From NCBI RefSeq assembly GCF_014217855.1, contig NZ_CP059059.1:558001-622000 (forward strand): a stretch of 64,000 nucleotides of DNA, written 5' to 3'. Positions within the stretch are counted from its first letter, which is position 1. Each line of letters opens with the position of its first letter. A program made the position numbers and the translations under genes. Of the stretch, positions 18,322-42,371 are shown one piece after another. Under the pieces are notes generated by a model. The model had not been told where the DNA came from, made no database searches, and saw only the letters and a program-made list of their open reading frames with translations. This DNA comes from Synechococcus sp. HK01-R. GTDB lineage: Bacteria > Cyanobacteriota > Cyanobacteriia > PCC-6307 > Cyanobiaceae.

Positions 18322-20142
18322 ATGCGCAGCAACGGATGCGGAGATCTGCGCGAAACACAGGTCGACGAGCAGGTCAAGCTCTGCGGCTGGGTCGACCGAC
18401 GACGCGATCACGGTGGAGTGATCTTCATCGATCTGCGGGACCGTACCGGCACCGTGCAGATCACCGTGGACCCCGATCTTGGGGCCGAAGCCTTCGCGGT
18501 GGCGGAACACCTGCGCAGCGAGACCGTCCTCCAGGTGCAGGGCAAGGTGCGGGCGCGACCGACTGAATCCCTCAATGAACGTCTGGCCACTGGCGCAGTG
18601 GAAGTTCTGGCCAGCACCATCACGGTGCTGAACAACGTCAAGGGCAACTTGCCCTTCCCGGTGTCGATCCACGACGAGGAGAACACGCGCGAGGAGCTCC
18701 GCCTGCGCCACCGCTATCTGGATCTGCGCCGCAAGCGCATGAACGACAACCTGCGCCTGCGGGCTCAGACGATCCAAACCGCCCGCCGCTTCCTTGAAGA
18801 CGAAGGCTTCATCGAGGTGGAAACTCCGGTGCTCACCCGATCCACACCAGAGGGAGCCCGCGACTACATCCTCCCCAGTCGCGTCTGTGGGGGTGAATGG
18901 TTCGCGCTGCCCCAGTCACCCCAGCTGTTCAAACAGCTGCTGATGGTGGGTGGCATCGAGAAGTACTACCAGGTGGCCCGCTGCTTCCGGGACGAAGACC
19001 TGCGCGCCGATCGCCAGCCGGAATTCACCCAGCTGGACATCGAGATGAGCTTCATGGATCAAGAGGACATCCTCGATCTGAATGAACGGCTGATCAGCAC
19101 CATCTGGAAAACGGTGAAAGGGATCGAGCTGCCCCGTCCCTTCCCGCGCATGACCTGGCATGACGCCATGGAGCGTTATGGCACCGACCGACCCGACACC
19201 CGCTATGGGATGGAGCTCACCAATGTGAGCGACATCGTTCAGGACATGGGCTTCAAGGTGTTCAGCGGTGCGGTGAAGGCCGGTGGCTCCGTGAAATGCA
19301 TCGCCGTTCCCGGCGGAAACGATGCCGTGTCAAACGTGCGCATCAAGCCAGGTGGGGACGTCTTCAGTGAGGCCCAACAGGCCGGCGCCGGTGGTCTGGC
19401 CTTCATCCGAGTGCGCGAGGGCGGCGAGATCGACACGATCGGGGCGATCAAAGACAACCTCAGCGAGGAGCAGAAGCAGGAGCTGCTCAGCCGAAGCGGC
19501 GCCGAGCCTGGCACCCTGCTGCTGTTCGGTGCCGGCGACACCGCCACGGTGAACAAGGCCCTGGATCGGGTGCGTCAGTACCTGGCGCGCGAACTGGGCC
19601 TGGTGAAGCCCGACCGGGACAACAACCAGTGGAATTTCCTCTGGGTGGTCGACTTCCCGATGTTCGAGTTCAACAGCGACGAGAACCGCTACGAAGCGCT
19701 TCATCACCCCTTCTGCGCCCCCAACAACAGTGATCTGGGCAGCGATCCAGCGCAATGGGCCCACAACCTGCCCACGGCCCGCGCCCAGGCCTACGACCTG
19801 GTGCTCAACGGTCTGGAACTCGGTGGCGGCTCCCTGCGCATCCATGACTCAGCTCTGCAACGTCAGGTGCTCCAGACCGTTGGACTGCCCCTGGAGGAGG
19901 CGCAGCAGCAGTTCGGCTTCCTGATCGACGCCCTCGACATGGGGGCACCACCCCACGGAGGCCTGGCCTTCGGCGTCGACCGCATGGTGATGCTCTTGGC
20001 CGGTGAGGAGTCGATTCGCGACACGATTGCCTTCCCCAAAACCCAGCAGGCCCGCTGTCTGATGACTTCAGCGCCCGCAGGGGTTGCCGACAAGCAACTC
20101 GAGGAGCTGCACGTGGCCAGCACCTGGGTGGATCCCGAATAG
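18322..20142 (+). CDS. aspS: Aspartyl-tRNA synthetase
   Basis: 606 residues from the ATG at 18322, the normal length for a bacterial AspRS. An N-terminal OB-fold anticodon-binding domain ([20 protein letters not shown]) is followed by the class II core: motif 1 (FIEVETPVL), motif 2 ([20 protein letters not shown]), the bacterial GAD insertion (from about 300), and motif 3 ([15 protein letters not shown]). A discriminating or non-discriminating enzyme cannot be told from sequence alone. Confidence 0.97.
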
Positions 20143-20207: not shown

Positions 20208-21083
20208 TTGACCACCAGTGAGCGATCGAGCGGGGCTTCCCGGGAGCGCAGGGGCGCAGGCAATGACCTGCTGCGCCTTTACCTGCAGGACATCGGTCGG
20301 GTGGATCTGCTCAGCAATGAAGAGGAGGTGCTGCTGGCCCGGCAAGTGCAACGGCGGGAGCAACTGCTGCGGGAGGAACGCGCCCTAGCGGTGAACCACC
20401 CGGTGCTGCAGACGCTGTTGGAGCTGGAGGAACTACAGCAACGGGAGGCGAACCATCTCTGTCACTGGCCCACCCGCCAGGAATGGGCGCGAGCGGCGGG
20501 GCTAGCCGTCAGCGACCTTCAGGCCACGCTGACCGAGGGATACGGCACCTGGGCAAAGCTGATCCAACTGGAACCCAGGGAACTCAAACGGGAGCTGCGT
20601 GATGGTCGCCGAGCCCGCGATCGCATGATCGCCGCCAACCTGCGTTTGGTGGTGACCGTGGCCAAGAAATATCAGCAACGGGGGCTGGAACTGCTGGATC
20701 TCGTGCAAGAGGGCACCCTCGGACTCGAACGGGCCGTAGAGAAATTCGACCCCACCCGTGGCTTCCGCTTCAGCACCTACTCCTACTGGTGGATCCGCCA
20801 GGGCATCACCCGGGCGATCGCCACCCAGAGCCGCACGATTCGACTGCCGGTTCACATCACCGAAAAGCTGAACAGGATTAAGCGAGTGCAGCAGGAAATC
20901 GCAAGTCAGGAGGGGCGACTCGCCTCCCTTTCAGACCTGGCCAAGCGTCTCGGGCTCAGCGAGGAAACGGTGCGCCTGACCTTGATGCGAGTTCCCCGCT
21001 CGGTCTCCCTTGAAATGCGCGTGGGCCGCGAACAGGACACCCAGCTCGGCGACCTGCTGGAGGATGGCAAAGCCACTCCCTAA
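20208..21083 (+). CDS. Sigma-70 family factor truncated before region 4
   Basis: 291 residues from a TTG at 20208 to a TAA at 21081-21083. Region 1.2 is DLLRLYLQDIGRVDLLSNEE; region 2 has AANLRLVVTVAKKY, LLDLVQEGTLGLERAVEKFD and the -10 recognition segment FSTYSYWWIRQGITRAI; region 3 has LPVHITEKLNRIKRVQQEIA. Region 4, which binds the -35 element, is missing because of the in-frame TAA, although it is intact in the same frame just downstream. The translated product could only recognise extended -10 promoters, or the gene is inactive. It resembles the group 2 sigma factors of picocyanobacteria. Confidence 0.8.
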   Translation: MTTSERSSGASRERRGAGNDLLRLYLQDIGRVDLLSNEEEVLLARQVQRREQLLREERALAVNHPVLQTLLELEELQQREANHLCHWPTRQEWARAAGLAVSDLQATLTEGYGTWAKLIQLEPRELKRELRDGRRARDRMIAANLRLVVTVAKKYQQRGLELLDLVQEGTLGLERAVEKFDPTRGFRFSTYSYWWIRQGITRAIATQSRTIRLPVHITEKLNRIKRVQQEIASQEGRLASLSDLAKRLGLSEETVRLTLMRVPRSVSLEMRVGREQDTQLGDLLEDGKATP

Positions 21084-21338
21084 CAGGAACTGACCAGGGA
21101 CGCCCTGCGTGACGACCTGGAACACCTGCTGGATGAGCTCACTGACCGGGAGGCGGAAGTGATCCGTCGGCGCTTTGGGCTCGAGGACGACACCCCCTGC
21201 ACCCTGGCGCAGATCGGTGAAGCGATGGCCCTCTCCCGAGAGCGGGTTCGGCAGATCGAAACCCGGGCTTTGCTGAAGCTGCGCCAACCCCAACGACGTT
21301 GCAAGGTGCGGGATTACATCCAGGAGTTCGATTCCTGA
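21084..21338 (+). pseudogene. Disconnected sigma-70 region 4
   Basis: Directly in frame after the TAA, 84 codons continue without interruption to a TGA at 21336-21338. They encode a full sigma region 4: [40 protein letters not shown] and the helix-turn-helix [17 protein letters not shown]. There is no start codon near its beginning, so it could be made only by readthrough or internal initiation. A single change at the TAA (for example from GAA) would restore a normal sigma factor of about 376 residues. Confidence 0.85.
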
Positions 21339-21400: not shown

Positions 21401-21883
21401 ATGACCGGCACCCCCACGATCGACATCGGAATCCCCGCTGACCAACGCGAACAGATTGCCTCCGGCCTCAGCCGACTGCTGGCCGACACGTATGTGCTCT
21501 ACGGCAAGACCCACGGCTTCCACTGGAACGTGACCGGCCCGATGTTCAACACGCTCCATCTGATGTTCATGGAGCAGTACACCGAGCTCTGGAATGCCTT
21601 GGACGTGATCGCGGAGCGGATCCGCGCCCTCGGGGTTGTGGCACCCCACGGTGGCAGCACCCTGGCCAATCTGGCCTCGATCCAGGAAGCCTCCCAACAA
21701 CCTGCCGCCCTGGAGATGGTGCGCGAGCTGGTGGCAGGTCATGAAGCGGTGGCCCGCACCGCCCGGAGCGTGTTTCCCCTCGCGGAGGCCGCGAGTGATG
21801 AACCGACTGCCGATCTGCTCACCCAACGTCTGCAGATCCACGAGAAGACCGCCTGGATGCTGCGCAGCCTGCTGGAGGGCTGA
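21401..21883 (+). CDS. dpsA: Dps/ferritin-like DNA-protection protein
   Basis: 160 residues from the ATG at 21401. Dps dodecamers oxidise iron with hydrogen peroxide and protect DNA. The ferroxidase segment at the subunit interface is present: [20 protein letters not shown], followed by [18 protein letters not shown] with the acidic ligands. The four-helix bundle is complete. The leader region carries a 12-bp tandem repeat. Single gene between the sigma remnant and pyrG. Confidence 0.93.
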
Positions 21884-38900: not shown

Positions 38901-40610
<1,710 letters not shown>

Positions 40611-40620
40611 GGCTGGTGGT

Positions 40621-42219
40621 CTAAGGGAACTGCTTGAGGCCAGGATCAACCTGATTGAGCTGTTCACGACTGAAACGAGGCGTGATCAGCAGGCGCAGGG
40701 GATCGCTACCACTAAACACTCCGGATCTGGCCGTCGGTGCTGCCAGCGGCGGCGCGGATGGGGTGTTGCTCAGGTGCTCATCGAAGAAAGCGCGGGCCAT
40801 CCCCTTCAATTCCTCTCGCGCCAGAGGCTGATCCGGACCGATCACAACAGCGGGCAATGCAGACGTGCCATCAAGGAACGAGAGATGGGTGCCGTTGTGT
40901 TGAAGAGCCAACAGGGAACCAGGCTGCTGAATCGACGTGAAGGGGATCAGCTGCTGAGAGACGGGCGGCGCAAAGATATCGCCCGTACCGGAAACAAACA
41001 GAATCGGCGCAGCAATCGCCTTCAGCGACGTGGGGCTGAAGATCGGATTGGTCACCGGATTCACCGCCACCGCTGCCTTCACGCGCAGATCTCGAAAACT
41101 CTTGCGTTGCACCACCTGGCCGGGGGCGACACATTGCCAGACCACCGCAGGATTGAGCACCACCTTGTCGGGATCGTTCAGCTCATCGCACCCCTTAAGG
41201 AGATAAGGCCAATCGAGTTCAGCACCAGCGAGGGCCGTCACGGTGTAACCGCCGAGCGACTGACCAAGCACGCCCACAGCGGCGGTATTCACCTTGGTTC
41301 CCCAACGCTGCTGCATCTGGTCGATCAGGTCACTGACGCTGAGCGGTTGGCCATACCAGGCATTCGCAGGCGGAATCGCACCGGTGCCCTGAATCGCCGC
41401 CTTGATCGTGTTGGCGCTGGTGAAAGGGAAATTCAGCGATGCCACGGCATAGCCATGGCTCGCCCGCTGCTGGCCCACATACAAGAGGGCATTCATATCG
41501 GTGTTCAGGCCAGGAGCAATCAGCACCAGCCGTGCCGGGCTGGCGCTCGTGGCGCTGTTGGGGATGTAGGCGATGGCGCTAATCGTGTCGCCGAAGCGTC
41601 CCTGAAATTGAAACGGGGTCTGGGTGAAAGCCACCGCCCCCTTGTCGGCCAACGTCGCCAGATCAGGACCCTGGGCCGGTTCCCCCTGAATGGAGGCAAT
41701 GCGAGGAAACAGCTTGTTCTGAAGGTTGAACTGCTGGGTGAGCGATTGAGCCAGGGAGAGCACCGCAACCACATTCACCGGCAGGGTTCGGGTCGGATAG
41801 GCCTGGAGCACATCAATCAGGCGCAGCTCACCGGATTGGGCAGCTCCAAGAATCAAAGCGGAAGACAGAGCCGGCTCGGCGATCTCAGGAGGCTGGGCGA
41901 ACACCTTCACCAGTTGCTGCAAAGAGCGTTTGCCAAGTGGAGTGCTGAGGAAATTGGACGCCATCACATCCGTGACGGGCACGCTTTGATTCAGCAGATT
42001 GCGCAACGTCTGCTGCTGCTGTGGTTTCAGCAGGTTGAAATAACTCTGTAGATCCGGATTGACGCGACCTGTTTCGGTGAAGGTCACCAGCGATGGCACC
42101 GACACATCGCGGGACAATTCACCGAACTGAAAGCGAACGCGCTCGGCTGCTATCGCTGGCAATCCCAGGGGCACAAGACCAGCCAGCAGGGAAAGCATCG
42201 TCAGTCCATAGCGACGCAT
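40621..42219 (-). CDS. DUF1400 / alpha-beta hydrolase
   Basis: 532 residues. Signal peptide (LTMLSLLAGLVPLGLPAIAA), then the cyanobacterial DUF1400 N-terminal domain (ERVRFQFGELSRDVSVPSLV), then an alpha/beta hydrolase with the nucleophile elbow GQSLGG (Ser), APILFVSGTGDIF (Asp) and HNGTHLSF (His). Likely a secreted or thylakoid-lumen esterase/lipase-like enzyme; substrate unknown. Similar proteins are common in picocyanobacteria. It has no evident link to the flanking nitrogen genes. Confidence 0.82.
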   Translation of the reverse strand: MRRYGLTMLSLLAGLVPLGLPAIAAERVRFQFGELSRDVSVPSLVTFTETGRVNPDLQSYFNLLKPQQQQTLRNLLNQSVPVTDVMASNFLSTPLGKRSLQQLVKVFAQPPEIAEPALSSALILGAAQSGELRLIDVLQAYPTRTLPVNVVAVLSLAQSLTQQFNLQNKLFPRIASIQGEPAQGPDLATLADKGAVAFTQTPFQFQGRFGDTISAIAYIPNSATSASPARLVLIAPGLNTDMNALLYVGQQRASHGYAVASLNFPFTSANTIKAAIQGTGAIPPANAWYGQPLSVSDLIDQMQQRWGTKVNTAAVGVLGQSLGGYTVTALAGAELDWPYLLKGCDELNDPDKVVLNPAVVWQCVAPGQVVQRKSFRDLRVKAAVAVNPVTNPIFSPTSLKAIAAPILFVSGTGDIFAPPVSQQLIPFTSIQQPGSLLALQHNGTHLSFLDGTSALPAVVIGPDQPLAREELKGMARAFFDEHLSNTPSAPPLAAPTARSGVFSGSDPLRLLITPRFSREQLNQVDPGLKQFP

Positions 42220-42371
42220 GAGCCAGCTCCATTCCGCCGCAGCACCCTCTACGAATCAGGGCTGATTGACAAGTGCAGACGCTCGCCAGATTCAGGATTC
42301 CAATTCGGTAACGACCGCCACCCGCGATGGCACCACTGAAGCCTTGGATGGGCCCAGCCATTCCACGGCAC

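Follow-up and report, generated by a model that had tools for sequence, protein, structure and literature searches.

A SigC-type sigma factor gene interrupted by an in-frame stop codon in the genome of marine Synechococcus sp. HK01-R

The genome of the marine Synechococcus strain HK01-R is a single contig of 2,479,154 bases and is 99.99% complete; the window discussed here is the whole 64,000-nucleotide stretch of it that was analysed. Positions 20208–21338 (forward strand) form one sigma-70 frame of the SigC type, group 2, which is interrupted by a TAA at codon 292 (21081–21083, forward strand); a preliminary description of this DNA had placed the stop at the same coordinates in a frame otherwise open. 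The 5' part of sigC (20208–21083, forward strand) comprises 291 codons and the TAA, and residues 1–291 of its product match the Pfam regions 1.2, 2 and 3, with the 3.2 finger located by alignment. The 3' part (21084–21338, forward strand) contains 84 codons, including [10 protein letters not shown], followed by the natural TGA (21336–21338); its 84-residue translation matches Pfam region 4 (PF04545, 1e-18), in agreement with the earlier reading of this tail as conserved, and the translated SigC is expected to end before it. Regions 1.2, 2, 3 and 4 are thus all encoded in order, and the stop parts region 4 from the others. No second lesion, either stop or frameshift, was found in the frame.

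Among the sigma factor models of NCBIfam, the top match of both pieces is SigC (NF005785), corresponding to cyanobacterial SigC (NF005785/PRK07598), a group 2 sigma-70 factor (TIGR02997). The domains and their order are the same as in intact SigC orthologues, but the HK01-R gene, unlike these, stops at codon 292, with region 4 cut off. Read through the stop, the frame scores 508.2 bits against the NF005785 curated cut-off of 554 bits and falls below it, although none of 151 family genomes reaches that cut-off, intact sigC genes included; against TIGR02997 it scores 414.2 bits, above the curated cut-off of 384.5 bits, with one TAA inside. The predicted start is a TTG (20208), a choice supported by a comparison of 30 loci (own included): equally far from the conserved DIGR motif, 28 of them have TTG and one (L020) has GTG; at L022 the codon at this position is not a start codon.

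The neighbouring genes, named from their translations, are intact on both sides: an aspS-like gene upstream (18322–20142, forward strand) and a Dps-like gene downstream (21401–21883, forward strand). A pyrG, likewise named from its translation, also lies downstream. The order of genes around sigC is identical in the relative G018. A second SigC copy was sought in this genome, and the next best among the matches listed scores 337.7 bits; at least five other sigma genes of the genome, among the matches listed, lie above the TIGR02997 cut-off and have no stop. Further along the window, between two blocks conserved with G018, there is a variable spot (40607–42371) of about 1.8 kb; the corresponding stretch of G018 is about 8.8 kb long. 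We also note a gene for a histidine- and acid-rich protein with tandem repeats at L174 6281–6981 (G000:C1 about 266281–266981, minus strand); a unit of 46 residues (138 bp) recurs about five times, with 97% matches, and the product looks like a metal-binding repeat protein.

The TAA is confined to HK01-R among the genomes aligned. Across 110 aligned sigC loci it occurs at the window locus alone, and the other 109 all have a glutamate codon at this position (GAA in 61 and GAG in 48) and no internal stop anywhere in the aligned stretch, with the proviso that the 109 include at least four loci that repeat a genome already counted (L005/L031, L009/L035, L020/L032 and L030/L034). The sense codon that the preliminary description anticipated in close relatives is therefore what they have, and the case that it named as contrary, relatives with the same TAA and a decayed region 4, is not seen, since none of the 109 has a stop. 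HK01-R sigC is likewise the only gene with a stop inside among the TIGR02997 matches listed for 31 genomes of the genus. In a scan of 151 genomes the SigC matches of G013 and G014 are flagged for a TAA, which comes from their extending upstream of the gene; in the TIGR02997 scan the same two genes have no stop inside.

A long sigC match is found in 30 of the 31 genus genomes (HK01-R counted), the exception being a genome that is 63% complete, and loss of SigC in HK01-R is unusual for a genus that keeps it so consistently. The distribution is patchier in a family sample of 151 genomes, each at least 80% complete and HK01-R included. A SigC-grade match (461–545 bits) is present in 49; in 13 there is an intermediate match (351–421 bits), which covers roughly the final two thirds of the model and could be a divergent SigC or a paralogue; and 89 have only weaker matches. 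SigC thus seems to be absent from many family members, and because only 49 of the 151 have a SigC-grade match, the survey suggests that it is dispensable in the family.

Codons on both sides of the stop evolve slowly. Compared with G018, sigC as a whole has dN 0.086 and dS 0.88 (dN/dS about 0.10), and for the 84 codons beyond the stop the values are dN 0.059 and dS 0.71 (dN/dS about 0.08). Replacements unique to a lineage, counted with G019 as the outgroup, number eight before the stop in each of the window, G018 and G028, and four, four and two, respectively, after it. The ratio of dN(window–G019) to dN(G028–G019) for sigC is 0.99, which ranks 26 of 37 genes (range 0.30–1.15) in a comparison set hand-picked as true frames, so that its freedom from stops is partly by choice. 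Judged from these rates, both parts of the gene are under purifying selection, close to the level of the nearest relatives. There is one departure: the 36 other genes pooled have 342 unique replacements in the window lineage, versus 796 in G018 and 672 in G028, whereas sigC has 12, 12 and 10, and it is therefore relatively high in the window lineage (Fisher p 0.044 against G018 and 0.066 against G028). The excess affects the sequence before the stop as well as region 4; its cause may be rapid evolution of a few genes in the G018/G028 line, or a somewhat older and mild relaxation of sigC. The preliminary description had proposed that selection has been relaxed very recently or not at all.

A region 4 long free of constraint would be expected to gather tens of replacements. 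A Poisson bound, which assumes a branch length of half of dS and a background of 2–4 replacements, places the stop within about 6–11% of this lineage's branch, and we consider the stop probably younger than about a tenth of that branch, because there is purifying selection on both sides and no second lesion. An old, decayed pseudogene was considered and rejected: dN/dS is about 0.1 and there is no second stop or frameshift, with the raised replacement count (p 0.044) the one mild sign in that direction. sigC is at most a very young pseudogene. Constraint after the stop fits a young mutation or an error, and would fit a full-length product that is still made as well.

Interruptions of this kind are rare in the HK01-R genome, within the reach of two scans. 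The first, a codon-usage scan for stops with coding-like flanks, covered 464 kb (19% of the genome; the window plus 20 stretches of 20 kb) and is blind to frameshifts, to lesions near gene ends and to lesions followed by a chance start codon. It returned 34 candidate stops, 25 of which are followed by a start codon within 20 codons; the nine without a near start comprise five in one repeat array, three that on inspection look like gene ends or antisense frames, and the sigC TAA. The occurrence of this TAA in a coding-like frame is not chance, because sigC is the sole clearly divided frame in the scan. The other used relatives to define frames, namely 81 frames of G018 of at least 100 residues that are stop-free over at least 80% of their length in G028 and G019; 68 of them have a window match that spans half their length, and the 13 that lack such a match fall outside the stop comparison. 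The window has a stop in 13 of the 68: sigC, one paralogous sigma frame that finds its best match in the window at sigC, and 11 shadow frames, which by their coordinates lie inside or across intact genes in another frame or strand. With the shadows and the paralogue set aside, sigC is the only one of the 68 with a stop in its own frame. In the comparison of the window with its relatives, 17 rows besides sigC show stops, and the seven of these that were inspected are shadow frames or stretches upstream of genes.

What is present, then, is a stop that is unique among the aligned genomes in a frame under purifying selection on both sides, and the preliminary description had offered three explanations for it: sequence error, a very recent nonsense mutation and programmed readthrough. 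The nonsense mutation is the best supported, by the uniqueness of the stop, the little or no decay and the lack of a second lesion; it is likely, in our judgement, that a single nonsense mutation of very recent date has struck codon 292 of sigC in this marine Synechococcus, with effective loss of function. A consensus error, in which case the strain has an intact SigC, is unlikely, albeit a real concern: a single wrong base in an otherwise undecayed frame would look alike, and our judgement is made from the assembled sequence of one strain of the species. Long-read sequencing errors are typically indels, whereas this change is a substitution; the genome is a single, nearly complete contig, no other relatives-defined window gene has a stop in its own frame, and the 464-kb scan found no other clearly divided frame, all of which argue against an error. 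Programmed readthrough of the TAA to give a short and a full-length SigC has in its favour the intact, constrained downstream frame and the rarity of TAA as a terminator in the window, where 36 genes counted use TGA 32 times, TAG three times and TAA once, at a G+C content of 62.5%. The same constraint is predicted by a young mutation, though, and a stop at codon 292 is conserved in none of the 109 other loci; none of the 43 tRNA genes found in the genome has a UUA, CUA or UCA anticodon that would read a stop, and the genes for RF1 and RF2 are present with no stop inside. We therefore regard programmed readthrough as unsupported and give it very little credence.

Two further readings grant the fragments a function of their own. 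In one, a two-piece sigma would be formed by the 291-residue core-binding part and a region 4 fragment started at a GTG (21159), the first in-frame ATG, GTG or TTG after the TAA, which lies 76 bases past it just behind a Shine-Dalgarno-like GGGAGG (motif and start at 21148–21161, forward strand). Its product, of 59 residues at most, would be without the first part of region 4, and a GGAG/GAGG-type motif with a start codon occurs at this place in only 17 of the 110 loci, a total that counts the window's own; G018 and G028, the nearest relatives, lack it. The motif and GTG are probably there by chance, a separately translated region 4 appears barely possible from this pattern, and a two-piece sigma is exceedingly improbable. 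The sigma functions of Bacillus subtilis SigO–RsoA, a two-subunit sigma, are divided over two polypeptides; HK01-R sigC has no conserved second start. The other reading takes truncated SigC as a retained, working sigma without region 4 that serves −10 or extended −10 promoters. It gains from the residual extended −10 activity of E. coli sigma70 lacking region 4, as described in PMC7948647 (see also PMC2613000), and from the description, in PMC11119718, of cyanobacterial class 2 promoters as −10 only. Against it, so recent a mutation cannot yet bear a sign of selection favouring the short product, and no architecture of regions 1.2, 2 and 3 only is found among those listed for 62 representative cyanobacterial sigma proteins; a retained, working short form is most improbable. 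Scarcely less so is the broader idea of sigma splitting, a natural group 2 sigma without region 4 that is active on −10 or extended −10 promoters, with region 4 perhaps made separately from GTG 21159.

Under the preferred reading, a recent nonsense mutation, translation would end at the TAA to give a 291-residue sigma with regions 1.2 to 3 and no region 4. Alignment to solved sigma factors pairs residue 287 with sigma70 526, and counting from it codon 291 falls near E. coli sigma70 residue 530, so that the end lies after the 3.2 finger. Nearly the same truncation exists as the sigma70 delta-4 fragment (E. coli 1–529), with which RNA polymerase is reported to be inactive on lacUV5 (−10/−35) and weaker on an extended −10 promoter (PMC7948647); that fragment was engineered and was tested in vitro. 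The short protein is predicted to fail on −35/−10 promoters and to be at best weakly active on extended −10 promoters, although it may still bind core RNA polymerase, and the strain would therefore effectively be a sigC loss-of-function mutant.

Such a mutation would presumably be tolerated, since HK01-R retains further sigma factors of the group and SigC itself seems dispensable. Synechocystis sigC knockouts are described, in PMC2758279, as growing slightly less and surviving stationary phase and heat poorly. The change may even have been favoured, or fixed, in (steady) culture, since RNAP–SigC holoenzyme is reported to be growth-limiting: an excess of it limits growth in high CO2 in a Synechocystis mutant without omega, according to PMC12329169. 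In stored cultures of E. coli, rpoS, which codes for the stationary-phase and stress sigma factor, is lost by mutation, as PMC3240573 describes, and the HK01-R case would likewise be loss of a stationary-phase or stress sigma factor, although rpoS is a different gene in a different organism.

The portions of the literature searched yielded no report of a SigC truncation or of a marine Synechococcus sigma pseudogene. Overall, this appears to be the everyday loss of a single gene, of recent date, or with lower probability a mistake in the sequence, and not a new route to two proteins from one gene. If truncated SigC were active, it would provide a natural test of sigma function without region 4; without such activity the locus is of the everyday kind, a gene recently lost or a faulty sequence. 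The case shows that even a reference genome can carry a broken gene for a stress sigma factor that its genus keeps, and for those who use this strain in stress, stationary-phase or nitrogen work, the state of sigC is worth knowing first.
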